This document shows positions 4,356-33,323 of a DNA stretch of 33,323 nucleotides, one piece after another; position 1 is the stretch's first letter, and the number at the start of each line of letters is the position of its first letter. The stretch is from Magnetococcales bacterium (GTDB lineage: Bacteria; Pseudomonadota; Magnetococcia; Magnetococcales; DC0425bin3). A program made the translations under genes and the position numbers. The stretch covers positions 1 through 33,323 of the forward strand of contig JADGCO010000048.1 of the NCBI GenBank assembly GCA_015228935.1. Reading direction: 5' to 3'. Below the pieces are notes generated by a model, which saw only the letters and a list, made by a program, of their open reading frames with translations, did not search any database and was not told the origin of the DNA.

Positions 4356-4904
4356 ATGCAGGGAAAACAATTGCCGAATCTGGTTCGCACGCATTTGCAG
4401 CAGGTGTTGACAGGGCAGAAAGGCTTGTCAGCCGCATCTCTGATGACGGATTGGCCCGATCTGGCTCAACCGGGAGCCTGTTTTATCACCTTGACCCGGA
4501 AAGGCCAGTTGCAAGGGTGCATCGGTTCTCTGGAGGCGCGTCGTCCCCTGGCGGAAGACCTGCTCGACAATGCGGTGGCTTCGGCTACCCGGGACCCCCG
4601 CTTCCAACCCATGCAGGCCGCCATGCTGCCCGAGGTACGCATTGAAGTGTCGCTGCTGACGCCGCCCCAGCCCTTTCCGTATCGGGATGCTGCCGATTTG
4701 ATGGCGCGTCTGCAACCCGGTGTGCATGGCGTGACCTTGACCTTGGGTGGCCGACGGGCCACGTTCCTCCCGCAGGTGTGGGAGCAATTGCCGGATCCGG
4801 CACAATTTTTGAGACATCTTTGCCAGAAGGCCGGTCTGTCAGGGGATTGCTGCCAACAGCATCCGGAAATTTCAGTTTATATGGCCGAAAAATTCAAGGA
4901 GTGA
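4356..4904 (+). CDS. amrA: AmmeMemoRadiSam system protein A (AMMECR1 domain)
   Basis: AMMECR1-domain protein of 182 aa. The hallmark LQGCIGSLEA block lies at about residues 50-60 (family consensus LRGCIGSL), followed by DPRFQPM, IEVSLLTPPQPF, GVHGVTL and FLPQVWEQLPDPAQFL, all family-specific. I used the ATG at 4356, preceded by AAAGGGGAT at good spacing; the frame is open further upstream but that part overlaps the MEMO-like gene. Its last ~100 bp (from 4803 to just past the stop) is present a second time at 6610-6712. The third component of the set, a radical SAM protein, is not adjacent; the accessory module starting at 4923 lies immediately downstream instead. Confidence 0.9.
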   Translation: MQGKQLPNLVRTHLQQVLTGQKGLSAASLMTDWPDLAQPGACFITLTRKGQLQGCIGSLEARRPLAEDLLDNAVASATRDPRFQPMQAAMLPEVRIEVSLLTPPQPFPYRDAADLMARLQPGVHGVTLTLGGRRATFLPQVWEQLPDPAQFLRHLCQKAGLSGDCCQQHPEISVYMAEKFKE

Positions 4905-4905
4905 A
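4803..4905 (+). repeat. Direct repeat, copy 1: 3' end of the AMMECR1-domain gene
   Basis: This 103-bp stretch, ending one base after the stop codon, matches 6610-6712 with three differences (4808 T/A, 4859 G/A, 4874 A/G). The two inner differences are synonymous in the AMMECR1 frame (CAG/CAA for Gln, TCA/TCG for Ser). Copy spacing is 1807 bp. The pair brackets the XRE/ImmA and PIN genes and looks like an attachment-site or gene-end duplication left by insertion. Confidence 0.95.
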
Positions 4906-4922
4906 TCAAGGGAGAAAATGTA

Positions 4923-5981
4923 ATGGCAATGAATGTGCGCATGGAGTTTGGTAAACGACTTTCCCATGAGCTTAAAAGAAGAGGCTTCGACAAGGGAAGA
5001 ATGCCTCCTGATTTGTCTCTTGATGTGGCGATTCTTCAGGAATACCAGAACGGAAAGAGGAAAGTGAATCTTTCTGAAATTGGAAATATTTGTAAAAATC
5101 TTGGAATAAATCCAGTATATTTTATTTCTTCAAATTATTCATATCCGACTCTTTCTTTCAGAAATGCTAAAAAGGAACATGTTGAATTTGCTTTAAAAAT
5201 TGAAGATGCTGTCTTGACAATTCAAGATTGTTTTCCCGATTTTTGTGTGCCAGATATTGAAATACCGAAATTTATTGAAAAAGATTTTTTTGATATTATT
5301 GATCATGTGGTTTCTTTTCTCGACAGGTTCAAGTTTTCTAATGTTGAAAGTTTGTTGGGCATGATGAAAATCATGATTCTTCCCATTCGTCCACCGGCCG
5401 ATATTGATTATGATGCTTTTCTTGTGATCACGAAATCCAAAGGGGTCATCTGTTTGAATCCAAACAAGCCTCCTGTTCGGCAGCATTTTTCAATTCTTTA
5501 TGAGCTGGCACATTTTATTTTTGATAGGGAAAAAGGGTTTGGTATTGATGTGTTGCCAAACAATTTATACAATGATCGTATTGAATATAAATTTCAGCCT
5601 GAATTTATTGCAAATAAATTTGCTCAATATTTTTTGGTTCCAGCCCATTGGGCCATAAAGGCATCTTACGCTTGGCCAATGTTTCATGCTGAAGAAGCTC
5701 AGAAGATTCTCAATGAAAGAAAAACGTCTCCCCAGGTTATGGTGAATGCTCTATGTGATCAACTTCGTCGCCTTCGTTCTGGGGCTGATTCTTCTTTTCT
5801 GCTGTATAGAGAAATTGGAGAGAAATTGAATTCTTGCGTATTGACAAGTGGTGATGCTTCATTTATTAAAACTGTTATCTCTCAACATGCACAAGAAATC
5901 AAAAAATGCTTGTTGAAAAATCAGGGTAAATATTCCAGTGAAATTTTTGCACAGATCATGTACGTTCTCCAGTTGGAGTGA
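4923..5981 (+). CDS. XRE-type HTH plus ImmA/IrrE-like protein with altered HExxH (putative antitoxin/regulator)
   Basis: 352 aa, AT-rich codon use unlike the GC-rich genes on its left. Residues about 8-70 form a lambda-repressor-like HTH (FGKRLSHELKRRGF..., ILQEYQNGKRKVNLSEIGNICKNLGI). The middle to C-terminal part resembles the ImmA/IrrE (DUF955, COG2856) peptidase region: a PIRPPADIDYDAFLV strand, SILYELAHFIFD, then EFIANKFAQYFLVP. In active members the central motif is HExxH; here it reads Y193-E194-L-A-H197, so the first zinc-binding His is missing and protease activity is doubtful. GGGAG lies 9 nt before the start. The next gene starts 8 bp after its stop (or overlaps it if the GTG at 5978 is used). 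COG2856 proteins coupled to PIN genes are a known toxin-antitoxin arrangement, with this protein as the antitoxin and autoregulator. Confidence 0.75.
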   Translation: MAMNVRMEFGKRLSHELKRRGFDKGRMPPDLSLDVAILQEYQNGKRKVNLSEIGNICKNLGINPVYFISSNYSYPTLSFRNAKKEHVEFALKIEDAVLTIQDCFPDFCVPDIEIPKFIEKDFFDIIDHVVSFLDRFKFSNVESLLGMMKIMILPIRPPADIDYDAFLVITKSKGVICLNPNKPPVRQHFSILYELAHFIFDREKGFGIDVLPNNLYNDRIEYKFQPEFIANKFAQYFLVPAHWAIKASYAWPMFHAEEAQKILNERKTSPQVMVNALCDQLRRLRSGADSSFLLYREIGEKLNSCVLTSGDASFIKTVISQHAQEIKKCLLKNQGKYSSEIFAQIMYVLQLE

Positions 5982-5989
5982 TTGAATCC

Positions 5990-6538
5990 ATGGCTTATGT
6001 GATTCTTGATTCCAGTTTTATCAGTAGAATCCGGCGTATCGACAGAAAATGCAGTTTGATATCCTTGTTTGCTGATCCATATGGGGCATCGTGTGTCTAT
6101 CATGTGCAGCAATATAAAGAGAATCCTTGTCATGAACAAAATGCCACCCCGGGCTGCATTGATTTGGAGTCCCTGATTGATGACGATGACGTTCTTGAGT
6201 TCTCGATGAATCATATAATTGATCTCTCTAAAATTTCAAGGGATCTTGTGGATATTAAAATAATTTTCTTTGCCAGTAAAGAAAGTGATGTCATCCTGTT
6301 GACCTGTGACGGCAATCTTTTAGAAGTCTGTCAACGTTTTTCCATAGGCCATTATTGTTTCAAGGCGGCTCTTGAACATTTGGATAAATATTATATTGGG
6401 GAAATATTCAATGGACAGGATTATGACACGGATTTGATGCATGATCCGAAGGGTGATGATCCATTTATGCATTACAAGCGAAATACGCGATGTGCGCCAT
6501 GTCATGCAGGAAAAAATTGCATGATTGTATATAAATAA
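5990..6538 (+). CDS. PIN-like domain protein (putative toxin RNase)
   Basis: 182 aa from the ATG at 5990, with GGAG 12 nt upstream; a GTG at 5978 that overlaps the previous stop is a less likely start. The opening YVILDSSF (D7) matches the first acidic strand of PIN RNases. A second block at about residues 98-125, SDVILLTCDGNLLEVC with D107, matches the ILTxDxxL strand-helix that carries the last catalytic acids. An acidic run IDDDDVLEF lies between. The C-terminus is unusual: about 45 extra residues ending in a CAPCHAGKNC cluster that could bind metal. PIN toxins coupled to XRE/ImmA proteins (for example DUF4411) are the best parallel. The fold is inferred from these motifs; overall similarity to a named family could not be judged. 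Confidence 0.55.
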   Translation: MAYVILDSSFISRIRRIDRKCSLISLFADPYGASCVYHVQQYKENPCHEQNATPGCIDLESLIDDDDVLEFSMNHIIDLSKISRDLVDIKIIFFASKESDVILLTCDGNLLEVCQRFSIGHYCFKAALEHLDKYYIGEIFNGQDYDTDLMHDPKGDDPFMHYKRNTRCAPCHAGKNCMIVYK

Positions 6539-6971
6539 AGTTAGTCCTGTCATTTCGAAGGCGGGAACATTTAACAAATTAATATTTCAAACGGGTGGGT
6601 CTCGACTGGCAATTATTGAGACATCTTTGCCAGAAGGCCGGTCTGTCAGGGGATTGCTGCCAACAACATCCGGAAATTTCGGTTTATATGGCCGAAAAAT
6701 TCAAGGAGTGAACAAAAAAAGAATATTTGCGTTTTTCCGGGAATACAGAAAACTGGGTTTTCTTGCAAGATCTTATAATTAATAGTATATATCATATGGA
6801 TTCAAATATCTATGCGGGTAAATTTTGTCTGACATGGACTTTTCGTCCATCAACGAATGCCAAAAAAACAGGCAAATTATATTTTTTTAAGAATTGTATG
6901 GATTTTTTTGGGGAAAGAGTTCATCCTATCCGAAATGCATATAAGTTTCAAACAGGCTCCAATGAGGCTGG
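6539..6971. other. AT-rich non-coding stretch holding the displaced AMMECR1 gene end
   Basis: From the PIN gene stop to the kinase start I see no convincing gene. It contains the second copy of the AMMECR1 3' end (6610-6712). The remainder on both sides is AT-rich, with short open frames lacking motifs or good ribosome sites. The AT-rich character continues about 250 bp past the right repeat, so the foreign DNA may extend beyond the repeat boundary. Confidence 0.6.
6610..6712 (+). repeat. Direct repeat, copy 2: orphan 3' end of the AMMECR1-domain gene
   Basis: Second copy of 4803-4905, 100 of 103 positions identical. It holds the final 31 codons and stop of the AMMECR1 gene in the same orientation but has no upstream part of that gene. 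Left of 6610 and right of 6712 the identity stops abruptly. Confidence 0.95.
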
Positions 6972-9485
6972 ATGGTGGGTGAGATGGCGCAACGTGCATT
7001 TCTGAAACCACTTTCGCGGATCCTGCACGTACTCCTGGGTTTATTTATCCTGGTATCTGGCCTGGTGGGGATGATTGGTTGGCATGCCAGTCTGCCGCAT
7101 CTTGTACAGGTCAGTCCGGCTCATGTGGCCATGCAGTACAATACAGCTTTGGCATTTTTCTTGACCGGAATCGGGATATCGGCTCTGAATTCACAGTGGT
7201 TCCAGATTGCGTACCTGTGTGGTGGAGCGGTAGCGTTATTGGGCGGTCTCTCTTTGGTGGAATATCTGGTCGGGCTGAATTTGGGTCTGGATCAGTTGTT
7301 CATGGTTCATCATATCACGATTTACACTTCCCATCCCGGACGCATGGCCCCCAATACGGCCGTCTGTTTTGTCTTGACAGGGATTGTTTTGGCAGGATGG
7401 AGGTATGCCATCCGGACCTCGACCTGGTATGTCATGGGTGTGTTGGGGGCGATTGCGACAGGAATTGCCTTGGCTGAGATTGTCAGCTATTCCTTGATGT
7501 TGGAAGCTGATTTCGGATGGTTTCATTTCACGAAAATGGCTCCACAAACCGCTGTTGGTTTTTTCGTCGCAGGCATGGGCGCATTGGCCTATGGCTGGCG
7601 TCAATCCGCAATTTTGTATGGATTCAGGTCAGCCTGGGGTCTGGCAACAACCGGGTTGATCGGGATGATGATCACCGTGATTTTGGGGGTTATTGTCAAA
7701 ATATCTTTGGAAGAACATAACTTTGATGCTGGATCCTTTCTTCACCTGGTCGATGATTTGATCCTGATCCTGGGTATTTCCCTGACGATAACTTTAGTGG
7801 CATCGATGGCGTTCGCCCACGCTGCCAGGCAAAGGTTCATGGATCTGTCGGCTGCCCACCAACAGTTGCAGGAGGAGACCAACAGGCATTGCCAGACTGC
7901 CCGGGCTTTGCAGGAGACAGTTGCCCGGCTCCGGATCAGTGAAGCGAACTATGGCGATCTGTTTGAGAATGTTCACAGTGGAGTGGCGGTTTATTCAACG
8001 CCAGACATGGGGAATACGTTCATTTTTCAGGGGTATAATCGGGCTGCGGAACGGATGGACCAGATATCCAGAGACAGGGTGTTGGGACAGGACGTGACTG
8101 CGGTGTTTCCGGGTGTGGTCTACTTTGGTCTCCTGGAAGTTTTTCGTCGGGTCTGGCGCACGGGCATGCCGGAACACCATCCTTCCTCCTTGTATCGGGA
8201 TCAGCGGCTCATGGCCTGGCGAGAAAACTATGTATGCCGCCTGGCCAGTGGAGTCATCGTTGCCGTGTATGAGGATGTCACGGAACGCAAGCAGTCGGAG
8301 CTGGCTTTGCAACAAGCCAAAGAGCAGGCCGAACAAGCCACCCGGGCCAAAAGTGACTTCCTGGCTGTCGTGAGCCATGAGATTCGCACACCCATGAATG
8401 TGATCCTGGGGATGTGCGAGGTCATGCTGGAGACGAATTTGAATCATGAACAACGTCACCATGTCGAAACCATGAATCGTTCAAGTACGGTATTGATGGG
8501 AATCATCAACGATATTCTGGATATCTCACGCATTGAAACGGGTCGTCTTGTCCTGGGCTGTGCGTCTTTTTCGCCGCGCCAGGTCGTGGAGGATATCGTT
8601 GAAATCTTGCAGGTGTCTGCCCGGGAAAAAGGCATTGTTTTGGATGACCATGTGGATTCAGAAATACCGGATGCCATCCTGGGCGACGATGTGCGTTTGC
8701 GACAGGTGATGACAAACCTGGTCGGCAATGCCATCAAGTTTACGCCGGTTGGCCGCATCGAAGTATGCCTGACGTTACAAAGCGAGGCACCGGAAGCGTT
8801 GTTGTTCCAGGTTGCTGACACCGGGATCGGCATTGCCCAGGAGCTGCAAGGGAAAATATTCGACCAGTTTGTCCAGGCCGATATGGGGATGACACGTCGT
8901 TTTGGGGGGGTTGGTTTGGGATTGTTTATTTGCCGGCGTTTGGTGGAACTGATGGGGGGGCGGTTGTGGTTGGAAAGCGAATTGGGACAGGGAAGCACTT
9001 TTTCTTTTACCTTGCCGGTTCGGAAAACAGATCCCTCCGGTCCGCTGGCCACGCTCCAGAATCCGATTGTCGGAGCGGACGCCCGGTCTCTGAACATTTT
9101 GTTGGTCGAAGACTCTCCGGACAATCAGATTCTGTTTCAAACCTATTTGAAGAAAAGTTCCCATCGGCTGGTGATTGTGAACAATGGTGTCGAGGGTGTT
9201 GCCCGTGTCAAGGAGGAGGCGTTCGACCTGGTTCTCATGGACCTGCAAATGCCCATCATGGACGGCTACACCGCAACGCGCCATATTCGCCAATGGGAAC
9301 GGGAAGCTGAACGATCTCCCCTGATTATTCTGGCCTTGAGCGCCCACGCCTCATCAGGCAACAAACAGGAAAGTCTGGCTGCCGGTTGCGACGATCATCT
9401 GACAAAACCCATCAAAAAACAGGAGTTGCTGGAGGTGATTCGACGGATTGGGCAGAGTAGGCCGGTTTCTGAAGGCGTTCAGTAA
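6972..9485 (+). CDS. Membrane hybrid sensor histidine kinase
   Basis: 837 aa. Residues 1-280 form an integral membrane sensor of about eight hydrophobic segments. Three related pieces recur in it (AMQYNTALAFFLTGIG, MAPNTAVCFVLTG, MAPQTAVGFFVAG), which suggests internal repetition. A short coiled region leads to a PAS-like domain (about 325-440). HisKA follows with the phosphoacceptor H469 in VVSHEIRTPMN, then HATPase_c (N box VGNAIKFTP, G1 DTGIGI, G2 GVGLGLF), and a C-terminal receiver with D757 in VLMDLQMP and a late Lys in LTKPIKK. No output domain follows, so it would relay to a separate partner that is not in the window. An in-frame ATG at 6984 is an alternative start. The stimulus is unknown. 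Confidence 0.88.
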   Translation: MVGEMAQRAFLKPLSRILHVLLGLFILVSGLVGMIGWHASLPHLVQVSPAHVAMQYNTALAFFLTGIGISALNSQWFQIAYLCGGAVALLGGLSLVEYLVGLNLGLDQLFMVHHITIYTSHPGRMAPNTAVCFVLTGIVLAGWRYAIRTSTWYVMGVLGAIATGIALAEIVSYSLMLEADFGWFHFTKMAPQTAVGFFVAGMGALAYGWRQSAILYGFRSAWGLATTGLIGMMITVILGVIVKISLEEHNFDAGSFLHLVDDLILILGISLTITLVASMAFAHAARQRFMDLSAAHQQLQEETNRHCQTARALQETVARLRISEANYGDLFENVHSGVAVYSTPDMGNTFIFQGYNRAAERMDQISRDRVLGQDVTAVFPGVVYFGLLEVFRRVWRTGMPEHHPSSLYRDQRLMAWRENYVCRLASGVIVAVYEDVTERKQSELALQQAKEQAEQATRAKSDFLAVVSHEIRTPMNVILGMCEVMLETNLNHEQRHHVETMNRSSTVLMGIINDILDISRIETGRLVLGCASFSPRQVVEDIVEILQVSAREKGIVLDDHVDSEIPDAILGDDVRLRQVMTNLVGNAIKFTPVGRIEVCLTLQSEAPEALLFQVADTGIGIAQELQGKIFDQFVQADMGMTRRFGGVGLGLFICRRLVELMGGRLWLESELGQGSTFSFTLPVRKTDPSGPLATLQNPIVGADARSLNILLVEDSPDNQILFQTYLKKSSHRLVIVNNGVEGVARVKEEAFDLVLMDLQMPIMDGYTATRHIRQWEREAERSPLIILALSAHASSGNKQESLAAGCDDHLTKPIKKQELLEVIRRIGQSRPVSEGVQ

Positions 9486-20959: not shown

Positions 20960-21415
20960 TCATTTGCATTTTCTTGCTTTTTCCATGAAAGAAAAAAATT
21001 CATAAAAATTTTGATATCCTTCAATGGCACGTTGCAATCGACAATATTGTCCGGAAACATATCCGAAGGTGTTGCCATCGGTATTCGTGCTACTGCAAAA
21101 TTGTTGTGTATAATTTTCATAAGATTTTTTTGCTTGGGCAATCTGTTTTTTTTGATGCTCGCACAAGTCAGCGTTTTTGTTAACCATGTTCGTATAGAGT
21201 AAATTGTATTTATCATTGACAAGCTTGGCTTGTGTTTGAAAGCAATCACCAACCGCTGCCCCTCCGACACTGTCCATATTGCATAAAAGACGATAATATT
21301 TCATGACATCATGAACATTAAAATAAACATTTTCGTTGGCTTCTTTAGCAATCGCATCTCCATAAATATGCATCGCTGCGCAAAGCACCAGGATGATTTT
21401 AATTTTCCTGTTCAT
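20960..21415 (-). CDS. Small secreted protein of unknown function, Cys-containing
   Basis: 151 aa from ATG 21415. The N-terminus MNRKIKIILVLCAAMHIYGDAIA is a Sec signal peptide with a likely cut after AIA (residue 23), giving a mature protein of about 128 residues. The mature part has six Cys (in LLCNMDS, GDCFQT, LCEHQ, QFCSS, QYCRLQ and KARKCK) that could pair as three disulfides in the periplasm, and a helical, Tyr/Gln/Lys-rich character. No family is recognised. It is AT-rich, and another small secreted protein is encoded 115 bp upstream on the same strand. The ribosome site is weak. Confidence 0.6.
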   Translation of the reverse strand: MNRKIKIILVLCAAMHIYGDAIAKEANENVYFNVHDVMKYYRLLCNMDSVGGAAVGDCFQTQAKLVNDKYNLLYTNMVNKNADLCEHQKKQIAQAKKSYENYTQQFCSSTNTDGNTFGYVSGQYCRLQRAIEGYQNFYEFFSFMEKARKCK

Positions 21416-21530
21416 ATGATCTAAACCCGCGACCTGGAGACCCCTCCACAATGCCCAAAACCAGGTTGGACGAGCCAAACGGAAGGGACATTTCCGGAAT
21501 CCATATGGAGTCTTTCATTATTGTTGCTTG

Positions 21531-21953
21531 TTATCGTTCCCTTGCAGGTGGAGTTGACAAATTACCGCGAATCAATTTGTCATTACCTTCCAGAATTTTT
21601 CCGCCTGCAAAAAATGCCTTCCATGAATCGTTCAGGATGCCGTTATTGTACGTGATCATGCTTTCGTAAACAAACTCATGCCCTTCATTCGTGATTCCAG
21701 TTCCCCGACAGGTGATCTTGTCGCCGTTGATGACGCCTTTTGCGGACCATGTGGATATATGATCCTTTCCCTGAAAAATGATGTAACCGTTCAATTCCTT
21801 GATCAGGGTCACATTCGTATCACCCCCGATCCAGACACCATCAAACTTCAATTCACTGGACTGTCTTTGGCCAATTCCGGCGGACGCCTGGTCCGGGTTG
21901 CCCACAAAAAACGACAAGAACACCAAAAAAAAGATAGTATGTACTTTGCACAT
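21531..21953 (-). CDS. Small secreted beta-rich protein of unknown function
   Basis: 140 aa from ATG 21953, with TTGGAG 7 nt upstream; in-frame codons further upstream lack a ribosome site. The signal peptide is MCKVHTIFFLVFLSFFVG with a likely cut after ASA (near residue 25). The mature part is probably an all-beta fold: FDGVWIGG, then alternating strands in NVTLIKELNGYIIFQG, TWSAKGVINGDKITCRG and VYESMITYNNGILNDSW. The W-x-G opening and repeated G/N turns recall lipocalin-like or lysozyme-inhibitor-like small periplasmic proteins, but I cannot assign one. It may be co-transcribed with the secreted protein at 20960-21415. Confidence 0.65.
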   Translation of the reverse strand: MCKVHTIFFLVFLSFFVGNPDQASAGIGQRQSSELKFDGVWIGGDTNVTLIKELNGYIIFQGKDHISTWSAKGVINGDKITCRGTGITNEGHEFVYESMITYNNGILNDSWKAFFAGGKILEGNDKLIRGNLSTPPARER

Positions 21954-22021
21954 AAAAAACTCCAATAATAGATGGCATCCGTATTGAACCTTGCCAATCA
22001 TCACTGAAGCAGACCCTGTCG

Positions 22022-25000
22022 TCAAGAAAATTTTGAAGTACGGATAGTATTACAAAATTTTTTACAGAACAACCACTCCCGCCATCCCCCTTTCGCCAGG
22101 GGAAAATAGAGACCGAGCCGGATAGGTCTGTCATCCAGGGCGTGCATGAGGCTGGCATAGGTTTCCATGTGTTCTTGATAGCGAATTTGTTCGTTGTCCA
22201 GAAATCCCTCCAGGTCGCCGCCGGCATGGTGACCGGTTTTGAAATCGATGATCCACCGTGTGTTGTCCGCATCGATGAAGGTTCTGTCCAGCACGACCCG
22301 CCGGATACGCCCATGAAGATGACCGGTCAGGGCCAATTCGGATTGGGGGTTGCCATGGCGTGGATCGAGAATCCATTGACCGCGGGGGTCGGCGAGGGTG
22401 GAGGTCAGAGCCATGGCAACCTGTCGGATGGCCGGGGAGAGGGCGGGCGAAGCGACGCCGAGCCGGGTCAATTGGGCGGCAAAATGGTGTTCCAGGGCAG
22501 CGATCCTTGGCACATTCCAGGCCTGGGTGCCTTCCCGGGCCATGACTTGCAGCCAATGGTGGACCACGATACCCACACAGCGCACGGTCTCCCCGGCCCA
22601 GATGAAAACCAGGGAATCCTCGGCACTCCGGGAAATTTCCGGGACAGGAGAGAATAAACCCGGCGGCGGAGAAGGCGGCTGCCAACCCGCCGGAAACCGT
22701 CGCAACTCCGGGAGCATTCCGGGTGGATCCGGATTGGCCGGCGGCTCGGCAGGAGAGGAGGAAGTTGCCGGCAGATCGGGTTCGGAAGTCGCGGGTGTGG
22801 CTTCGGCAAAATCGGCCTGCACCGCAGGCCACAACAGGTGTAGAAAAGACCCGTGCGCGGCCCCGGCAACCTCGGCCTGGCCAAACAAATGCAACGACCG
22901 TCGTGCCCGGGTCACGGCCACATACAGGAGTCGGGCGGTTTCGAGGCGCTCTTTTTCGCGGTCGATACTGGCCAGAAAGGCGTAGATGGGATCCGGGTCG
23001 GCCTGGTCGGAGCGTTTCAGGGGGGCCAGCAACAACGCTTCGGCATCCGGAACGGCAGGGCGTTCCATCCAGAGCAACAAGCGGCTGGATGCTCCCCGCG
23101 ATTTGCGACCCAGACCAGGCAGGATGACGGTGCCAAATTCCAACCCTTTGGCCTTGTGAATGGTCATCACCTGGACCAGGGCATCGGCGTGGACCGGGGC
23201 CGCAAACAGTTTTTCCAGACCTCGATCGAGGTGCCGAAAATCGGTCAGATCACCGCCTTGTTCCAGGGATTCGAGCAGATCAAGAAAAACCAGGGCATCT
23301 TCCATCTCTTCCGGCCCTTTCAGGGTGGCAGGCCCCCCCAGGGCATACCAGGTCGTTTCAACCCAGCGCCGCAACACCCCGGCACCATGATGCCAGCCCA
23401 TCCGCCGTCGCAACTGCCAGGCCCGGGTCAAGACCGTGCCAACCCGTTCCAGGCGGGATCGGCTGGCCGGGTTCAGTTGGCTGGTTCGGATCGGATCGTG
23501 CAGGCACTCCCAGAGTGTCGTGTTGTTGGGCGTGGTGGTGGCTTCGCCAGTCAGGATCAACAGCTCCGTCAGGGTCAGGCCACACCAGGGGGCACGCAAC
23601 AAGGCCAGCCAATGCACCCGGTCGGCAGGGTGCAACAGGGCACGGGTCAGGGCAAACAAATCCTGCACCACGGGCGTCCCGGCCAAGGCGGCGATTTCCA
23701 CGGCCTGAAAGGGAATGCCGCTCCGGCGCAGGGCGGGAACAATATCTCCCAGATGGTTGCGGGAGCGCACCAGGATGGCAATTTTTTCTTCCGGAGAATG
23801 GTGCAGGGCATCTTGCACCGTTGCCACCACCTGCCCGGCCTCGGTTTCCGGTGCAGCCGGGATTTGGGGGTGGCTGGCCACGGGGGTTGGATTTCGGGCC
23901 GGATGAAAGGGATGGGCGGCGACAAACGGGGTTTCGCCGGTCAGGGGGTTGCTGCGGTTGGGCATCAGTTCCTTGAAGAGCGTGTTGACCCAGGCCACCA
24001 GGCCACCATCGGAACGAAAATTGACCGATAAATTTCTGGATTGCAGGGAGACCGATCCCAAACCCCGCTGTTGGACCTGGTAAAACAATCCCACCTCTGC
24101 CTCCCGGAAGCGGTAGATGGATTGCATCGGATCGCCGACCAGAAACAGGGTACGACCATCATCCGGCTGCCAGCCGGCGGTCAGGTGTTCCAGGAGCTGA
24201 AACTGCCCCCGGGAAGTATCCTGAAATTCGTCCACCAGGAGGTGACGAATTTGATGATCGAGGCGCAAGGCCAGATCGGTTGGATTGTCGTCCCTGCCCA
24301 ATGCCCGGACCGCAGCCATGGCCACTTCGGTAAAATCCACCACCCCCCGTTCGGCAAACAGCACCCGCAAGGCCGCCGCAGCCATGGGCAACAGTTGTTC
24401 CAATGCCTGGAGAATTTCCCACTGTTCGGCGCTGTAGACCGGATCCGGCAAGAGGTGAACCGCATGCAACCGATTGTCCAGATTCGGAATGGCGGCCAGG
24501 GTTTCCCGTGTTGCCATGAATTGGGATTTCATGGTTCGGAACCGCTTTTTTTCTTGCGGAGAGCGCCCGGTACTTTCGGGGGGAAAGCCGTTGCGGCGAT
24601 CCACTTTGGCACGCCAGGTACCTTCCCTGGTCAACAGCAGGGTTGCGATGCCGCGCCACAGGGAAAGATCCTCCGGTCTTGGTTCCGGCAATGCGATACC
24701 TGTTGCCTGCCAGGCAACAAGGGGAGAATCGTGTTGTTCGGGTGGCAGGTTGTTGGCGGCGAAATGGAGCAGCTCCGGCAGGGAATCCCGCACCGGCGGT
24801 GGCCACGCTGTTGCCATGTGCTGCAACTGTTCCCGGACCAAAGCCGCCAGGGCAAATTCAAGATTTTGCCGGCTCAGACGCCCGCCTGCCAAAAAACGCA
24901 ACCATTGGTCACGTCGTGCCAGCAGGTCGGCCAGCAGGGTTTCGACCCGCCCGGGATTGTTGTCCAGGTGGTCCAGAAGGCGGGCGACGGCGGGTGACCA

Positions 25001-26551: not shown

Positions 26552-27139
26552 GTGGCAATCAACCTGGACAGGGTTTCTGTTGCGGCAGTTTCTTCCGAAG
26601 ACAATCAGAAGATTCGGGAGGGAAAGAGGTCGGGTCGGGTGTGGTTTCCCCGGCGTCGATCCGGCGCGGAGGACGCAACTGGTGGCGGATCGTCCATCTG
26701 GCCCCGTTCTTCCGTTCTGGTAGCCATTTCCGAAACGGGACGCCTGGTTGCAGAGACGGCACGACATGTCGGTGCCGCCGTTAAGGATCTCGTGCGGCAG
26801 CATCGGATACGGAGTGGATATTCATATGGTCCCGACGGCGACATGCGCCAGGCGCATGCCACCATGCGCAATACGGTATCCACGCAGAACAAACCGGCAC
26901 AAGCCGGGCAGGGGTCACCAACTGCCTCGATCTGGCCCTTGTCTGCCAGTCGGGTGACACTCTCCGAAACCTCACGCCTGGCCGCCGGCGTGATTGCCAA
27001 CCTGGATGCCACCCCGGAAGAACAGAATGATTTTCTCGCCCAAATCCGGGCAGCCGACCGACAGGGGCGTTTTTCGGGCACGGTCCTGGCCGGAGCCAGG
27101 CGTCTTGTGCAGACTTTTCTGGCCCCGGAGGTGTCCTGA
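26552..27139 (+). CDS. Hypothetical protein with an internal duplication
   Basis: 195 aa from a GTG at 26552, with AGGGGTGG upstream. No family is recognised. The protein contains two related segments: SSIWPRSSVLVAISETGRLV (from about residue 47) and ASIWPLSASRVTLSETSRLA (from about 125), which share SIWP, a six-residue step and SETxRL. Each is followed by an Ala/Val-rich helix. Between them lies a basic, Gln/Asn-rich linker. No signal peptide or membrane segment. The duplication supports that it is a real coding frame; the opposite strand also has an open frame over part of it, without internal structure. Confidence 0.55.
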   Translation: MAINLDRVSVAAVSSEDNQKIREGKRSGRVWFPRRRSGAEDATGGGSSIWPRSSVLVAISETGRLVAETARHVGAAVKDLVRQHRIRSGYSYGPDGDMRQAHATMRNTVSTQNKPAQAGQGSPTASIWPLSASRVTLSETSRLAAGVIANLDATPEEQNDFLAQIRAADRQGRFSGTVLAGARRLVQTFLAPEVS

Positions 27140-27224
27140 TAAGGAAGGTTGCGAAACCCGGTGGTACTCGACATTGACTTGATTGCCTGATATGATGTAA
27201 ATGTATTCCGGCACGGCGACATTG

Positions 27225-27267
27225 CCATGGAAGGAAAAATATTTGCTCTCCATGGAGGCTTTTTTTC
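27225..27267 (+). terminator. Possible intrinsic terminator
   Basis: CCATGGA (27225-27231) pairs with TCCATGG (27249-27255) across a 17-nt loop, followed after AGGC by a run of seven T (plus strand). It lies 86 bp after the hypothetical gene stop. Confidence 0.45.
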
Positions 27268-27404
27268 CAGAACCCAGTTTGTTCTGATGTGAGGAACCGA
27301 GGAAAGGGGAACCTCGAATGGCAAGGGCATTGCGTCCATAAACGACGGGTTCGGGGCTTTTTTTGTAAGACATGCCGTAAATATTCAGGTGTGTTTCATT
27401 TTTG

Positions 27405-27433
27405 TTGACACATTCTGTTCAGTCCAGGATCAT
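27405..27433 (+). promoter_or_regulatory. Candidate promoter of the FRG-domain gene
   Basis: A perfect -35 hexamer TTGACA (27405-27410) stands 17 nt before GATCAT (27428-27433, 4 of 6 to TATAAT). Its position would place the transcript start near 27440, compatible with translation from 27450, 27480 or 27522 but not from the upstream TTG at 27402. Confidence 0.35.
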
Positions 27434-27521
27434 CCAGCCTTTGGTTTCCATGGTGAGTGTCGGTCAGGAGAAAATTGATGTGCATCTGCGCAGCCTTGGG
27501 CAGAAACCTGGAGTTTCTCAG

Positions 27522-28547
27522 ATGACAGAACATTGTCTTAAACCTTTTGGCAAAATTTGTTCTGTTAAAGATGCTATGGACATTATTTTTAATGATTCGA
27601 GTAGCGTTAAACAGCAGATATCCGACTCTGACTCTAACAGAACTGTGTGCAGCTCTTCTAGTAATGATCCTGATTGTTTCGGTAAGGAAAATCGGCATCA
27701 TGTTCCGCCTGAAATTTGGTTTAGAGGCCAAACAAATAAGGATTGGGGTCTTGTTCCTGCAGTGTTCAGGAATGTTGGTTTGAAAAGGTATAACGAACAA
27801 AGATTATTTTATCAGTTTCAGAATGAGAATCCGTCGTATGCCGAAAATCACGTCTCAGCATTTGATTGGCTGTGCTTAATGCAACACTATAATTTGCCTA
27901 CACGACTTCTTGATTGGACTGAGAACATATTGATAGCGTTATTTTTCTCTGTGTATGACCCTTTTTACGGAAACTTTGATCGCAACGATGAACACGATGG
28001 CAGTATTTTTAGGATTAGGGCTAGCGAATTAAACTCTAAAACCCGCGCCAATCAGATAAAAAAAGCGGGGATTTGTGGCTCAAATAGTGTCGATGTGATA
28101 ATAAGAAGCCACATGGCTTTCAGTAGAAATATTAGAGATTTATATTTTCAGATGAAAAAGAGCGGCGTCTTTCTTAATGTTTGTGACGTCTTAGGTTTCG
28201 ATGGTCAAAGTAATGTGGACGGATTTGGGTCACGCATTTCAGATCAATTTGAAAAACCTGTTGCAGTGTTTCCAAGAAGAATAAATTTAAGGATGACTCC
28301 CCAGGCGAGTGTGTTTACAATCTTTGGAGGTGTCAAGAATACTGTCAAAGATGAAAATCTGATTGATAGAAAATTTAATGATCTATATTGTTCAGAATTT
28401 AACAATATACTTGAAAAATACATTATTCCTAGTAAGAGCAAAAGGGATATACGAGATCAACTGAGAAAAATTGGCGTCCATATTGGCACAGTTTTTCCAG
28501 AACTCGAACATAGGGCAAGAGCTATTTCGCAGGATTGCTTGGTTTGA
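27522..28547 (+). CDS. FRG-domain protein
   Basis: 341 aa from ATG 27522, chosen because CCTGGAG lies 8 nt upstream; in-frame starts at 27450 (ATG) and 27480 (GTG) remain possible. The FRG domain is clear: WFRGQTNKDWGLVPAVFR at residue 66, the name-giving Phe-Arg-Gly motif, then MQHYNLPTRLLDWTENILIALFFS (120-143). The C-terminal part ends in a helical region with KRDIRDQLRKIGVH, which is also typical. The biochemical role of FRG proteins is not settled; they occur in variable accessory loci, including some with defence or toxin roles. Codon use is AT-rich compared with most of the window, suggesting acquisition. No partner gene is obvious: the next gene, 150 bp away, belongs to a different type of cluster. 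Confidence 0.85.
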   Translation: MTEHCLKPFGKICSVKDAMDIIFNDSSSVKQQISDSDSNRTVCSSSSNDPDCFGKENRHHVPPEIWFRGQTNKDWGLVPAVFRNVGLKRYNEQRLFYQFQNENPSYAENHVSAFDWLCLMQHYNLPTRLLDWTENILIALFFSVYDPFYGNFDRNDEHDGSIFRIRASELNSKTRANQIKKAGICGSNSVDVIIRSHMAFSRNIRDLYFQMKKSGVFLNVCDVLGFDGQSNVDGFGSRISDQFEKPVAVFPRRINLRMTPQASVFTIFGGVKNTVKDENLIDRKFNDLYCSEFNNILEKYIIPSKSKRDIRDQLRKIGVHIGTVFPELEHRARAISQDCLV

Positions 28548-28697
28548 ATATATATTGAGCAATATTTAATATTCTATAACCGGATCACGTAATTACCGAT
28601 TTTTTTGTTTGAAGCTGTGATTTTTTTCAGCCATAGAAAATTATTTGAAAAATACGGTTAATTATCTGCAATTGTCAAAAATTGGAACGACGATCTC

Positions 28698-29468
28698 ATG
28701 GAATCACCACTGTTGAAAGAGCCTCAGCATCAATCACGTGAAAACAGCGAATTTGTTTCCGCAATATCGGAGTATTGGTTCCATAGCCCGGGTTCGGTAA
28801 TTGCAAAACTGCAGAATTTCCCAAAATTCGTCAGCCGTGAAGATATTACGAAATTTCTGGCACGAAGTGAAATTTATCTTAAGCAACTCTCCATTCAAGG
28901 ATCCATTGTTGACCTGGGCATCTACCGGGGTGGCAGCCTTATGACTTGGCATCATTTGAATTCCATTTATGAGCCGGTTAACTACACACGAGAGATCATC
29001 GGGTTTGACACTTTTCAGGGCATACCAGAACTCTCTACTGAAGATTTACAGTCCGACTCGGTTAGCGCTCATATAATGGAACGTGGATTTGCACCAGAAG
29101 ATGGAATGCGGGAGGATATCGAAAGGGCCATTGAGATTCATGACAAAACCCGCTGGCTTTCCCATATCAAAAAAACTCGGATCATTCCTGGTGATATCAC
29201 CAAGACACTGCCAGCATACATCGAAAAAAACCCTTATTTGATGGTCTCGTTGCTGAATATTGATGTGGACATCTTTAAACCGACGAAATCGGCACTGGAA
29301 CTCCTCTTACCGCGCATGCCGAAGGGAGCCGTCATCCTGTTCGATGAGATAGGCAATAAACTCTTTCCCGGGGAGACTGCAGCCCTTAACGAGGTCATTG
29401 GCATAGCAAATTTAAAAATTGAGCGGCTTGTCTACGCCCCGGCGATTTCCTACACCATTATCTCCTGA
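28698..29468 (+). CDS. TylF/MycF-like SAM-dependent O-methyltransferase
   Basis: 256 aa. The pattern is that of the macrocin-O-methyltransferase (TylF) family, which methylates sugar hydroxyls in antibiotics and surface glycans: SIVDLGIYRGGSL (SAM site, 69-81), GFDTFQGIPELS (102-113), IIPGDITKTLP, LLNIDVDIFKPT (metal-binding Asp pair) and VILFDEIG. Length is typical. The N-terminal ~45 residues are outside the core. It is first of four plus-strand genes ending with glf and a glycosyltransferase, so a sugar substrate (possibly a galactofuranose-containing glycan) is inferred from context. Confidence 0.8.
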   Translation: MESPLLKEPQHQSRENSEFVSAISEYWFHSPGSVIAKLQNFPKFVSREDITKFLARSEIYLKQLSIQGSIVDLGIYRGGSLMTWHHLNSIYEPVNYTREIIGFDTFQGIPELSTEDLQSDSVSAHIMERGFAPEDGMREDIERAIEIHDKTRWLSHIKKTRIIPGDITKTLPAYIEKNPYLMVSLLNIDVDIFKPTKSALELLLPRMPKGAVILFDEIGNKLFPGETAALNEVIGIANLKIERLVYAPAISYTIIS

Positions 29469-29498
29469 ACTGTTTATTATCTCCTCAAGCGACCATAC

Positions 29499-31103
29499 AT
29501 GATGACTCGATCTACATCCTCCATTCACGTCGGTTTGCTGGGATTGGAGGCAACGGGGGTAACCGACAGGAGTGTTGCCCTGGATATCGCACACGCGATT
29601 TGCCTCGAAGCAGGGTTCAACATTGCGTTCCATTTGGACCTCGCTTTCGATGATGGTGCAAAAGTGTGGAACGCAGTTTCGCGGACGGCAATGTTGGATG
29701 CCATTCTCATCTGTCTCAGACCTACGGCCGCTTTGTTGCTGGGTAATCTACAGGAAGCACTAAATTCCCGTTTGACCGCCGGTCTTTCTGATCCATTGGT
29801 GGCCTTTGGCGGTCCTACAGTTCTCTGTGCCTACCATGAGATCGCGCAGAATTTTTCCAAGGCGTTCGTCTGGTCAGGGACGGTGGAAGAGGGATTTCCT
29901 CATTTTCTAAAGGTGTTATACAAACGGTTCTCCCATGCAATGGTTACGGACGAATCCAGGAGGTCCATGAGAACCGTTACAAAACACTTTGCAATGCCGG
30001 TCCAACACTCCACTGAACGATGTGTACGATATGGTGGAAGCATCTGGATCGAAGCCAGTCGGGGATGTCACCAGAAGTGCAATTTTTGCATCATGTCAAA
30101 CGATCAAGCCTTATCAAAATGGATCCCCAGACCGTTGGAAGACCTGTTCGACGAAATCGCGACGATCAAAGATCAATTCGGCGTAGGGTATTTCAGTTTT
30201 TCCGATCTTTCAGCATTTGAAACCAGGGAATACACACAAGCGTTTCTCGACGAATACCGACGCAGAAACATGACATTCTCTTTTCGTTGCGATATGCGCT
30301 TGGCAACGGTAAGAAACCTGGGAAACAAGCTTCTTGAACTCCGGGATGCCGGGCTCAGTTCTGTATACGTCGGGATTGAAACTTTGGTTCCAGAATTTCA
30401 ACTTGTTTATGGAAAACAGTACCCCGGAAAAGAGGCCATTGACCATCTCCTCTCCATCGATATTTTGGTATCCGCCGGCATCATTATGCTGGATCCACTC
30501 TACTCACCTGAAGATTTTCGCTGCCAAGTCGAAGGCGTTCTCCGAGAGAATTTACTTCCTTTAATCGCTACCCCTTTCAAAACTACTAGAGTACAAAAAG
30601 GTACCAGGTATGAAATATTGGCAAGAAATCATGGGATACTTGGGGATTTGTTGCCAAATCTCTGTGATTATTCTTATCGGTGCCTGGATCAAAAAATGGA
30701 AATCGTCCGCCAGATCATGGAGTTTTTTCATCAAACGACCAAACATATCTATTATAATCCCTATATTGAAGGACAGATCCGCCAAGCCCGACTTAATGAT
30801 AACTTTGTGGCCCGTCTGCACGGCATTTCGGTGAGATACAAGGAAATCCAAATGAAGTTGCTCCATCATTTGGCCAGGATTGTTACCGAAAATTCCAGTA
30901 TGGACGGCATTCTGAAAAAATCACTGGATGCTGCCGACATGTTTGCCAAGGAACGTAAGGAGGTATTTGCTGTAACAGCCAAAAATTACGAGCAGTTATT
31001 GGTAGATGGGATTCCCTATTATCGACTGGATCTTGAGCGATTCATTTCCCTTTATCAGGAGGTTCCCATGTTTGATGCGGACCGGGTCAGGGTTGCCCAG
31101 TGA
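29499..31103 (+). CDS. Radical SAM protein with degenerate cobalamin-binding-like N-terminal domain
   Basis: 534 aa. The radical SAM cluster motif is CHQKCNFC (C190, C194, C197) within SIWIEASRG, followed by a TIM-barrel pattern: SFSDLSAF, FSFRCDMRLA, GLSSVYVGIETL and SAGIIMLDPLY. The first ~150 residues look like the Rossmann domain that binds cobalamin in class B radical SAM enzymes (VGLLGL, LDAILICLRP, AFGGPTVLCAYHEI, VWSGTVEEGFPHFLKVL), but the DxHxxG cobalamin ligand motif is absent. The usual GEGE turn is replaced by SGTVEEG. The C-terminal ~170 residues are helical and unassigned. The stop overlaps the glf start (TGATG), so the two are translationally coupled. The substrate is unknown; a sugar or lipid carrier is a guess. 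Confidence 0.75.
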   Translation: MMTRSTSSIHVGLLGLEATGVTDRSVALDIAHAICLEAGFNIAFHLDLAFDDGAKVWNAVSRTAMLDAILICLRPTAALLLGNLQEALNSRLTAGLSDPLVAFGGPTVLCAYHEIAQNFSKAFVWSGTVEEGFPHFLKVLYKRFSHAMVTDESRRSMRTVTKHFAMPVQHSTERCVRYGGSIWIEASRGCHQKCNFCIMSNDQALSKWIPRPLEDLFDEIATIKDQFGVGYFSFSDLSAFETREYTQAFLDEYRRRNMTFSFRCDMRLATVRNLGNKLLELRDAGLSSVYVGIETLVPEFQLVYGKQYPGKEAIDHLLSIDILVSAGIIMLDPLYSPEDFRCQVEGVLRENLLPLIATPFKTTRVQKGTRYEILARNHGILGDLLPNLCDYSYRCLDQKMEIVRQIMEFFHQTTKHIYYNPYIEGQIRQARLNDNFVARLHGISVRYKEIQMKLLHHLARIVTENSSMDGILKKSLDAADMFAKERKEVFAVTAKNYEQLLVDGIPYYRLDLERFISLYQEVPMFDADRVRVAQ

Positions 31104-32320
31104 TGTTTGAAAACACCCAATGTGTCATCGTAGGTGCAGGTTTCTTTGGTGCGGTCATGGCCGAACGTATTGCCAATGATGCAGAAGAACGGGTTGTTAT
31201 TCTGGAACGCCGCCATCACGTCGGAGGTAACTCTGCATCCGTAATAGACCCAGAGACCAGGATTGAAATCCACTGCCATGGAAGCCACATTTTTCATACC
31301 AGTAATGAATCTGTTTGGCACTATATCACTCAGTTCACTGGATTTAATAATTACCGCCACAAGGTTCTGGCAACACACGCTGGCAAAGTGTACCCGATAC
31401 CAATAAACCTTTCTACAATCAATCGGTTCTACGGTCGTAACTTTACTTCGGAAGAGGCGAGAATGTTCCTTGATGGTGAAATCGACCGGGCATTAAGGTC
31501 TGGAGGGTGTTCGGGTTTTGAAATGGCTTTCCTATCCAAAACCGGTCGGCCATTGTACGAAGCTTTCATCAAAGGCTATACTACCAAGCAATGGGGTGAA
31601 GGTATTGATAAGTTACCAATCGCCATTGCCCAGAGAATTCCGGTGCGATGTAACCATGATGGCAGCTATTTCGATGATAGGTGGCAGGGAATTCCCGTAA
31701 ATGGATATGCCGCTTTGTTTGACCGTTTGCTTCAAAGCGAACGGATTGATTTATATCTCGGTGTCGATTTTTTTAACGTTCAAAGATACATCCCAAAAAA
31801 ATGTCTCATTATCTACAGCGGGGCCTTGGATCGGTTTTTTGGATACAAATATGGCCGCCTGGGCTGGCGATCTCTGAAGTTTTCTTTTGAAACTGTTGCG
31901 AACAATAATGTACAGGATACGGCGGTGATGAACTATCCCGATATTGACGTACCCTACACGCGCATTCACGAGTTTCGTCACTTGCATGCCGAGCGGAGTT
32001 ACGCTTCCAGGTGTTCCATCATCTGTCGTGAATATCCGATGGAGTACGGAACTGAGGACGAACCCTATTATCCAATACGATCCAAGGAAGATATTGAAAA
32101 ACTCTCCAAATATGCAGCAGAACCGGCTGAAAATCATATTTTTGGTGGCAGGCTTGGAAGTTATGCCTATTTGAATATGGACCAGGTCATTGAGCAAGCG
32201 TTGTCGCTCTACGAAAGGAAAGTCAAACCCCGGTTACTGTCACGTAGGAAACCGAGATTGCATGGAATTTTTATAAAGAGAGGGATGGACCCGGGTAGTC
32301 ACAAACTGGTGGCGGAATAG
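31103..32320 (+). CDS. glf: UDP-galactopyranose mutase
   Basis: 405 aa, converts UDP-galactopyranose to UDP-galactofuranose with reduced FAD. Family marks: IVGAGFFGAVMAERIA and ERRHHVGGNS (FAD-binding), HCHGSHIFHTSNESVWHYI, GYTTKQWG, WQGIPVNGY, YSGALDRFFGYKYGRLGWRSLKF, EYPMEYGTEDEPYYPI and IFGGRLGSYAYLNMDQVI near the end. The length is slightly above the usual ~370-400, with a basic C-terminal extension. I used ATG 31103, which overlaps the stop of the radical SAM gene by one base; the GTG at 31100 is the alternative. Galactofuranose is used in O-antigens and other surface glycans, which sets the likely theme of this cluster. Confidence 0.92.
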   Translation: MFENTQCVIVGAGFFGAVMAERIANDAEERVVILERRHHVGGNSASVIDPETRIEIHCHGSHIFHTSNESVWHYITQFTGFNNYRHKVLATHAGKVYPIPINLSTINRFYGRNFTSEEARMFLDGEIDRALRSGGCSGFEMAFLSKTGRPLYEAFIKGYTTKQWGEGIDKLPIAIAQRIPVRCNHDGSYFDDRWQGIPVNGYAALFDRLLQSERIDLYLGVDFFNVQRYIPKKCLIIYSGALDRFFGYKYGRLGWRSLKFSFETVANNNVQDTAVMNYPDIDVPYTRIHEFRHLHAERSYASRCSIICREYPMEYGTEDEPYYPIRSKEDIEKLSKYAAEPAENHIFGGRLGSYAYLNMDQVIEQALSLYERKVKPRLLSRRKPRLHGIFIKRGMDPGSHKLVAE

Positions 32321-32461
32321 GATGGACAATGATCCCAGGCAGTTGCTTTTTTAAACGGGAAGAAATCATTGGCGGGCCAGAAATTTCTTTCGGTTCTTGG
32401 CTTCTATTGTTCTCAAGCGGGTTTTTTCTCCTGACATGTAGATGGTCGAGATGCTAACGCT

Positions 32462-33187
32462 ATGACGCAAAAACGCATTCTGTTGGTCTTCGGAAAATAT
32501 CCCAGGGTTGGCCATGTCAAAACGAGACTGGCACCTGCCATCGGTTTCCCTGCCGCACAGCAGTTATACAAGGCTTTTCTGTCAGACGCGGCTTGCCGCT
32601 TCATTCCACCCCGGGAAGGCCATTGTTATGACGTAAAATGGGTCTATTCACCAAAAGACAGCGACTTTCCTCAAATGATCAGGTCTATGCATAGTCTTTG
32701 TGGTTTTGAAGAAAAAAAGATCGACGCATCTTTGGATTCCATCTTATTCTCCGGTCACGACATAGATGATATCGGCGAAATGCAGATCAATCAGCTTAAA
32801 TGGGCTCGGAATTCCGGTTACGAATCTGTTATTATCATTGGTACCGATTCGCCTCATCATAGCAAGGATACCATCAGCAAGGCATTCGAACGGTTGGAAG
32901 ACAACGACGTTGTCATCGGACCATCAACGGATGGTGGATATTATTTGTTAGGCCTGAGAAACATTTGGGACATCATCGACGGCATCGACATGTCTTCCAG
33001 ACATGTCATCAATAATCTGGTGGCTCGGGCAAACGCCGCAAACAGGAGGGTTGGTTATGTTGAAACAATCACTGACATTGATGATTGGGACGATCTGCAA
33101 GTACTGATCAAAAAAATCTCTCCGAGTCATGGTGAACCATGCCGCAATACATGGAAAACGCTTAAAAAACTTGGCTTGGCGGAATGA
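32462..33187 (+). CDS. TIGR04282-type (DUF2064) glycosyltransferase
   Basis: 241 aa. It shows the nucleotide-sugar-transferase-like opening LLVFGKYPRVGHVKTRLAPAIG, VIIIGTDSPH with the DxD-like metal site, VVIGPSTDGGYYLLGL and the C-terminal VGYVETITDIDDWDDLQ. This family is annotated as a glycosyltransferase with a GT-A-like fold; the donor and acceptor are unknown. It follows glf after 141 bp on the same strand, so a role in the same glycan pathway is plausible but not shown. The ribosome site is weak. Confidence 0.85.
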   Translation: MTQKRILLVFGKYPRVGHVKTRLAPAIGFPAAQQLYKAFLSDAACRFIPPREGHCYDVKWVYSPKDSDFPQMIRSMHSLCGFEEKKIDASLDSILFSGHDIDDIGEMQINQLKWARNSGYESVIIIGTDSPHHSKDTISKAFERLEDNDVVIGPSTDGGYYLLGLRNIWDIIDGIDMSSRHVINNLVARANAANRRVGYVETITDIDDWDDLQVLIKKISPSHGEPCRNTWKTLKKLGLAE

Positions 33188-33269
33188 AAAAGGGTAGTGC
33201 CTTCGTTTGGTTGATTTCGCTCAAACAGCCATACCAAACTCAAACCGGTTGATAAAAAGGCCGATTACA

Positions 33270-33323
33270 ATGTCATGCATAAGAATCGACCTGGAAAAGC
33301 AAATGGTCCTGCGTGCCAGTCTC
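33270..33323 (+). CDS. Possible start of a gene running off the right edge
   Basis: ATG at 33270 with AAAAGG 8 nt upstream opens a frame that stays open for the 18 codons available (SCIRIDLEKQMVLRASL). It is too short to judge the product. Confidence 0.3.
   Translation, partial: MSCIRIDLEKQMVLRASL

Follow-up and report, generated by a model that had tools for sequence, protein, structure and literature searches.

A gene near the end of a contig from a Magnetococcales bacterium encodes a radical SAM protein whose amino-terminal region resembles a cobalamin-binding domain but lacks the DxHxxG motif. It raises two questions: whether such a protein would still bind cobalamin, and on what kind of substrate it would act. 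The window, that is the whole stretch of DNA analysed, is 33,323 nucleotides long. A sequence-only reading of this gene had been made before, and its coordinates and motif observations were exact. The gene and the features within it are as follows.

29499–31103, forward strand: radical SAM protein of 534 amino acids, ATG start, class-1 architecture (N-terminal Rossmann domain)
29499–29936, forward strand: divergent cobalamin-binding-type Rossmann domain, residues 1–146, as assigned from profile score, model strands and structural matches
29718–29720, forward strand: Arg74, placed by alignments as the first residue past strand 3, which ends at residue 73 in the model
29808–29813, forward strand: Gly104-Gly105, conserved glycine pair past strand 4 (glycine in 136 and 142 of 143 aligned sequences, respectively)
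29877–29888, forward strand: Gly127-Thr-Val-Glu130, by column counts an altered form of the usual Gly-Glu-Gly-Glu past strand 5
30066–30089, forward strand: CxxxCxxC sequence, Cys190-His-Gln-Lys-Cys194-Asn-Phe-Cys197, the [4Fe-4S]/SAM motif
30690–31058, forward strand: C-terminal helical bundle, residues 398–520, as in OxsB, from model helices and the VIA alignment to OxsB

The Pfam Radical_SAM family (PF04055) matches the protein with an E-value of 6.3e-10 (39.9 bits, cut-off 29.5), confirming its assignment as a radical SAM protein. The match spans the CxxxCxxC motif, which is intact as had been stated; its three cysteine columns are invariant in alignments A1 and A4. The segments FGGPT and VWSGTVEEGF, to which attention had been drawn, are residues 103–107 and 124–133. 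In the 143 aligned sequences, Gly127 is shared by 87 and Glu130 by 130, while Cys72, Thr128 and Val129 each occur once. The features of a class-1 cobalamin-dependent radical SAM enzyme that are present comprise the CxxxCxxC core, a five-stranded Rossmann domain (in a model that depends on its alignment) and the C-terminal helical bundle. Over the full length there is no DxHxxG, the criterion of His-on cobalamin proteins (MetH, mutases), and not even a DxH.

The absence of DxHxxG is by itself ordinary in this group of enzymes. The 143 sequences, the protein under study included, were drawn from 192: 17 from its own genome, ten of alignment A1 (the protein itself among them) and 165 frames from viral contigs among the matches listed. 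The profile was matched by 154 of the 192; altogether 49 were left out, because they either failed to match or did not cover the domain. Upstream of the cysteines, DxHxxG is found in two of the 143, at 18 and 229 residues before them; the more distant one starts at residue 103 of its protein (L096) and is unplaceable relative to strand 1. At least 175 residues precede the cysteines in 132 of the sequences, and a few frames may miss strand 1. The genome itself has 22 loci that match the Pfam B12-binding family PF02310, 17 of them with CxxxCxxC, and is, judged by these domain matches, rich in B12-type radical SAM enzymes; since 20 of the matches are over the cut-off, cobalamin enzymes are probably used by this organism. 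None of the 17 has DxHxxG in its B12 part, and one has the motif 18 residues before the cysteines. Among the five loci without CxxxCxxC, three also lack DxHxxG; the two that have it are presumably methylmalonyl-CoA mutase and MetH.

Published cases agree with these counts. In TsrM the cobalamin is base-off and His-off, according to an excerpt of PMC8992657, which contradicts the earlier proposal of either base-on binding or no cobalamin binding here. BchE has base-off, four-coordinate cobalamin in the portion available of a preprint (PMC13142503), and Mmp10, an enzyme of class 2, is likewise described without DxHxxG and SxL in a part of PMC8828468. Enzymes of this kind had been thought to be known in a few cases; with the upstream motif absent from 141 of the 143 B12-type sequences aligned, they are the rule. 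In view of these cases and counts, the missing motif was rejected both as a remarkable feature and as a sign of base-on binding.

By sequence and model, the amino-terminus is a divergent cobalamin-type Rossmann domain, in line with what had been claimed. Residues 1–176 score 15.9 bits against a profile built from the N-terminal parts of 26 CxxxCxxC proteins (17 encoded by this genome and nine plasmid relatives), compared with a best score of 4.5 bits in 500 shuffles of the same residues. PF02310 itself is unmatched at E ≤ 1, and the protein is absent from the 22 matches of that family in its genome. An AlphaFold2 model (mean pLDDT 73.6, pTM 0.79) has strands at residues 10–16, 41–48, 68–73, 100–104 and 122–124, alternating with helices over residues 10–142, and continues with the radical SAM barrel and the C-terminal helical bundle. 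Past strand 5, where class-1 enzymes have a beta-hairpin, a strand is drawn only at residues 148–149, and residues 151–159 have a pLDDT below 50. The input for this model consisted of 31 sequences, the 30 others being 13–19% identical and picked as B12-type proteins; the fold of residues 1–164 from the single sequence has a mean pLDDT of 39.4 and is uninformative as a control.

When the model was compared to known structures with VIA, 19 of the best 50 rows covered the N-terminal domain alone (model residues 1–156), 14 of them cobalamin proteins by title, among them 4r3u_C (Z 12.7, model residues 6–144), 8dpb_D (12.5), 3bic_A (12.2) and 1y80 (12.2). The other five comprise two entries each for ketoreductases and arginine decarboxylases, and the response regulator RcsB (Z 12.5); the fold alone is therefore no proof of cobalamin binding. 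Taken with the sequence, it is probable that the domain has a cobalamin site whose lower face is unusual, a decayed site being its main rival.

The whole model is closest to OxsB, the enzyme of oxetanocin A biosynthesis (PDB entries 5UL2–5UL4). OxsB is the top match in Foldseek (E 1.1e-14) and in VIA, where 5ul3 is aligned over 470 residues (model residues 1–513) with a Z-score of 20.4 and an r.m.s.d. of 5.8, followed by AprD4 (19.3), MgmA (18.9), MiaB (18.1), TsrM (17.9), CysS (17.4) and TokK (16.1). The Z-scores of OxsB and AprD4 lie within about 1 of each other, and the r.m.s.d. for AprD4, 4.0 over 382 aligned residues (model residues 6–466), is below that for OxsB. In a pairwise sequence comparison with radical SAM structures only MgmA was found (E 0.021), and OxsB was not. 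The profiles differ in their first match: A1, which includes OxsB-like members, finds OxsB first (4.7e-83), while with A4, made of other members, AprD4 comes out on top (1.6e-51), ahead of MgmA and, in third place, OxsB (2.1e-39). Both profiles reach the cobalamin domains of OxsB and TsrM, while AprD4 is reached only from profile position 165–167 on. In a viral structure library, the top matches are mostly generic radical SAM proteins.

In a FastTree phylogeny of 73 sequences, the protein falls in a clade of ten that also contains three relatives whose best solved structure is OxsB: P0001 (E 3.5e-31), L042 (7.5e-72) and L046 (1.3e-16). This clade has a support of 0.958 with the cobalamin and radical SAM columns together and 0.999 with the radical SAM columns. 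Within it, the former tree joins the protein with L042, L040 and P0001 in a clade of four (0.976); in the latter, these three join it only within a wider clade of seven (0.79). The branch leading to the protein is long. Its relatives in the tree were gathered by similarity to the protein itself or to P0001, with the best 45 of 116 viral sequences taken, and OxsB, AprD4 and TsrM are not included. Membership of NCBIfam product families (TIGR04072, BchE, HpnJ, TIGR04295, ArsL and others) was rejected: 16 families match at E ≤ 1, none over its cut-off, and the best, TIGR04072, reaches 34.7 bits of the 360 required. Neither outcome that would have refuted the sequence-only reading was thus observed: no family with an established product claims the protein, and its amino-terminus is modelled as a Rossmann fold. 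That reading had likewise assigned no product type. PADLOC gave no match to the protein at E ≤ 0.01.

Orthologs were sought in genome, class, phylum, plasmid, phage and viral collections, and none was found. The protein has four weak paralogs in its own genome. Of 100 relatives, 50 match at E ≤ 0.001; apart from the protein itself, the strongest of these matches (1.5e-11) covers residues 174–300 only. Within the class (48 genomes, all of one order), one genome matches at E ≤ 1e-12, the protein's own; within the phylum (398 genomes), two match, its own and G210, with 22% identity over residues 166–477. Five plasmid records match, none covering 80% of the protein, and the phage collection has no match at 1e-5. 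On genome contigs, 12 pattern-matching stretches were obtained with the single protein and 162 with the two-sequence alignment A2, and on viral contigs two with the protein, 93 with A2 and ten with P0001; in each of these searches none was confirmed. P0001, the top plasmid relative, is a radical SAM protein of Sphingobium yanoikuyae (WP_004213299.1) with 26% identity over residues 39–408 (83 bits); it matches PF02310 over the cut-off, and its gene sits between SurE and a NUDIX gene. Its best match in the Magnetococcales genome is another locus (81.8 bits, versus 51.8 for the protein under study), so that the two are not reciprocal best matches. Two of the 398 phylum genomes match P0001 at E ≤ 1e-22, neither with an evident ortholog of the protein.

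Several B12-type radical SAM genes related to the clade adjoin one or more further radical SAM genes. They do so at L046 (5363–8520, neighbours named by eye) and L040 (5245–9115), in both cases next to a NUDIX gene as well, at L043 (5695–8473) and L041 (5632–8615), and at L080 (4851–7662, neighbours named by eye), on a contig filed as viral. These pairs span distant bacteria and are reminiscent of AlsB/AlsA, a pair described in the accessible part of a 2025 review of the cobalamin domains of radical SAM enzymes (PMC13331322). At L080, the B12 radical SAM gene (4851–6490) is split into two frames of 126 and 403 amino acids, and an opposite-strand frame upstream of it looks by eye like a transposase.

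One unusual feature of the putative cobalamin site is residue 74; three other positions of the domain, Cys72, Thr128 and Val129, are just as rare. Counted along the alignments, Arg74 shares its column with Asn186 of OxsB and Arg69 of TsrM, and it is predicted from these alignments to lie under the cobalt as the lower-face residue. Arginine occurs in this column once in 143 sequences and once in the 31 of the separate alignment A4, in both cases in the protein itself. The one lysine among the 143 is that of P0001, and the nine other members of A1 have K, N, D, L, Y, T, C, T and T. This rarity is measured mainly against one type, with Tyr74 and Trp76, to which 75 of the 143 sequences belong. In the CysS alignment, a tryptophan is found at column 76, two past the column of Asn186 and Arg69, where the protein under study has Thr76; Trp76 of TokK is presumed to be the equivalent of this tryptophan. 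In the radical SAM part, Leu237-Ser238 are found where TsrM has the cluster ligand Glu273, which coordinates the unique iron, and OxsB has Glu363. Glutamate is uncommon here in the sample: of the 143 sequences, 8 have it in column 237 and 3 in column 238.

The genes around the radical SAM gene lie on the same strand.

28698–29468, forward strand: TylF/MycF/NovP-type methyltransferase (PF05711, E 3.5e-10), 30 bases upstream of the radical SAM gene
31103–32320, forward strand: UDP-galactopyranose mutase, GLF (TIGR00031, 311.7 bits, cut-off 303.75)
32462–33187, forward strand: DUF2064 protein (PF09837, E 8.4e-21), 141 bases past GLF

GLF begins with the ATG at 31103, the first base of which is also the final one of the stop codon of the radical SAM gene; the open reading frame list has its start at GTG 31100. 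The DUF2064 protein is near the glycosyltransferase-like family TIGR04282, with 126.6 bits just under the cut-off of 134. The contig ends at 33323 and so truncates the operon. Relatives of GLF are present in two of the 48 class genomes (E ≤ 1e-30) and relatives of the methyltransferase in 13 of 48 (E ≤ 1e-15), own genome included in both counts; in G012 the two are on separate contigs. In another class genome, the GLF relative adjoins GalE-like and glycosyltransferase-like frames (names by eye), and the methyltransferase's top two plasmid relatives sit in sugar/glycan clusters. Two stretches around relatives of the neighbours, read by eye, have no B12 radical SAM gene alongside. Given the sugar-gene neighbours and the contexts of the relatives (NUDIX, SurE and radical SAM pairs), a sugar or nucleotide sugar is the best guess for the substrate.

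From 27 kb on, the GC content is 42–46%, versus 52–64% in 15 of the 18 other 1500-base windows; the other three low-GC ones lie at 4501–7500 and 21001–22500. This suggests that the AT-rich stretch 27000–33323, which is cut by the contig end, is an acquired island. At its start, an FRG-domain protein is encoded (27402–28547, forward strand; PF08867, E 3.6e-23), which matches PDC-S15, a candidate family for phage defence in PADLOC (E 1.7e-42). Elsewhere in the window, a Memo-like frame (PF01875, 3524–4342, forward strand) and an AMMECR1 frame (PF01871, 4116–4904, forward strand) share 227 bases in their listed extents; since the match to AMMECR1 starts only at residue 90, the listed start of that frame is probably too early.

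The reading we prefer, with moderate confidence, is that the protein belongs, as a divergent member, to the OxsB-like branch of the class-1 cobalamin-dependent radical SAM enzymes and modifies a sugar or nucleotide sugar as part of a glycan-type operon. Its computed basis consists of the homology of the radical SAM core, the cobalamin-type Rossmann amino-terminus, a domain order of class-1 type, the placement in the tree and the surrounding genes. The retained Gly104-Gly105 and Glu130 count for it, as do the methyltransferase, GLF and DUF2064 neighbours on the same strand. The N-terminal domain would bind cobalamin in the base-off form, and Arg74 rather than a histidine loop would lie beneath the cobalt; the cluster held by Cys190, Cys194 and Cys197 would cleave SAM to a 5'-deoxyadenosyl radical, which would abstract a hydrogen from a substrate carbon. 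The cobalamin may then either give a methyl group, leading to C-methylation, or stabilise the substrate radical in a skeletal change. Against this reading count the unmatched PF02310 and the singular Cys72, Thr128 and Val129, which may mean a decayed pocket; the structural closeness of AprD4, which outscores OxsB with profile A4; and a pairing with the neighbouring genes that is not backed by any ortholog, in an operon cut at 33323. The match with P0001, which is not reciprocal, also counts against it.

Compared with the described enzymes, the protein is like OxsB in the order of cobalamin domain, radical SAM domain and helical bundle, in being matched best by it in structure, and in having three clade relatives that also match OxsB best. 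It differs from OxsB in lacking the extra N-terminal domain (residue 1 of the model aligns at OxsB residue 110), in an identity of only 14% over the structural alignment, in having Arg74 for Asn186 and Leu237-Ser238 for Glu363, and in its neighbours, which are sugar genes. OxsB and AlsB form a group of ring-contraction enzymes with 2'-dAMP/2'-dATP as substrate; AlsB is an OxsB homolog, as stated in PMC13331322. With P0001 the protein shares a basic residue at column 74, lysine in P0001, while P0001 differs in its PF02310 match and its SurE and NUDIX neighbours. GenK and GenD1 of gentamicin biosynthesis, which an extract of PMC5461906 describes as radical SAM methylases of class B with sugar substrates, are likened to it by this description. 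By title, no pertinent paper was found linking radical SAM enzymes with UDP-galactopyranose mutase, none was found on a degenerate cobalamin-binding domain in radical SAM enzymes, and none of those listed for cobalamin-dependent radical SAM enzymes, NUDIX and nucleotide sugars was pertinent.

AprD4 is not known to use cobalamin, and its likeness to the protein raises the possibility, less probable than our preferred reading and yet the most serious challenge to it, that cobalamin has been lost along the same line of descent. The Rossmann domain would then survive as a scaffold or as a cap over the substrate, with the enzyme carrying out cobalamin-free radical chemistry on a sugar, such as a diol dehydration like that of paromamine by AprD4. 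The failure of PF02310 to match and the three residues seen once in 143 sequences would fit such a loss. So would AprD4 (PDB entry 6FD2) itself, with its Rossmann-like amino-terminus and radical SAM core, its Z-score of 19.3 over model residues 6–466 and its first place with profile A4. The sugar context is shared too: the substrate of AprD4 is an aminosugar in the sections available of PMC5461906, and the neighbours here are sugar genes. Speaking for a cobalamin site, on the other hand, the glycine pair and Glu130 are retained and the B12-domain profile still recognises the amino-terminus, while the amino-terminus of AprD4 is beyond the reach of profiles A1 and A4. The tree, which does not contain AprD4, groups the protein with OxsB-like proteins, including the PF02310-positive P0001. 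By Pfam names, no AprD3-type partner reductase is among the four visible genes of the cluster, but the contig ends at 33323.

Arg74 also brings TsrM to mind (PDB entries 6WTE and 6WTF), with a Rossmann and a radical SAM domain, a Z-score of 17.9 for 6wtf and, by alignment, an arginine in the same column, Arg69, which lies under the cobalt without ligating it; the lysine of P0001, the closest plasmid relative, would go with this. That the protein is, like TsrM, an arginine-capped polar methylase that favours cob(I)alamin and works without a 5'-deoxyadenosyl radical is nevertheless improbable. Leu237-Ser238 take the place of Glu273 (Glu363 in OxsB), even if glutamate is rare there in the sample too; one position alone predicts little, and the tree does not include TsrM. 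The identity to TsrM over the structural alignment is 14%, and the substrate of TsrM is tryptophan. Least probable of all, and to our mind very unlikely, is a decayed, non-functional gene on an acquired island. The lack of an ortholog in the collections searched, the GC content of 42–46% and the long branch would be in keeping with decay, but the frame of 534 codons is intact, the radical SAM motifs are kept and the gene overlaps the start of an intact GLF gene.

Returning to the preferred reading of an OxsB-like enzyme, the arginine predicted under the cobalt in an OxsB-like frame, rather than the absence of DxHxxG, is the lead worth following. A more specific version, which we regard as doubtful, is that the protein belongs to the OxsB lineage with a natural arginine under the cobalt that tunes the cobalamin towards cob(I)alamin, and that it catalyses an undescribed C-methylation or rearrangement of a sugar in a UDP-galactofuranose operon. 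The combination of an OxsB-type body with a TsrM-type arginine would make the protein a natural test case. The described members of the branch, OxsB and AlsB, act on nucleotides, according to the available text of PMC13331322; the position of this OxsB-like enzyme next to genes for furanoses and sugar methylation suggests glycan substrates for the branch.
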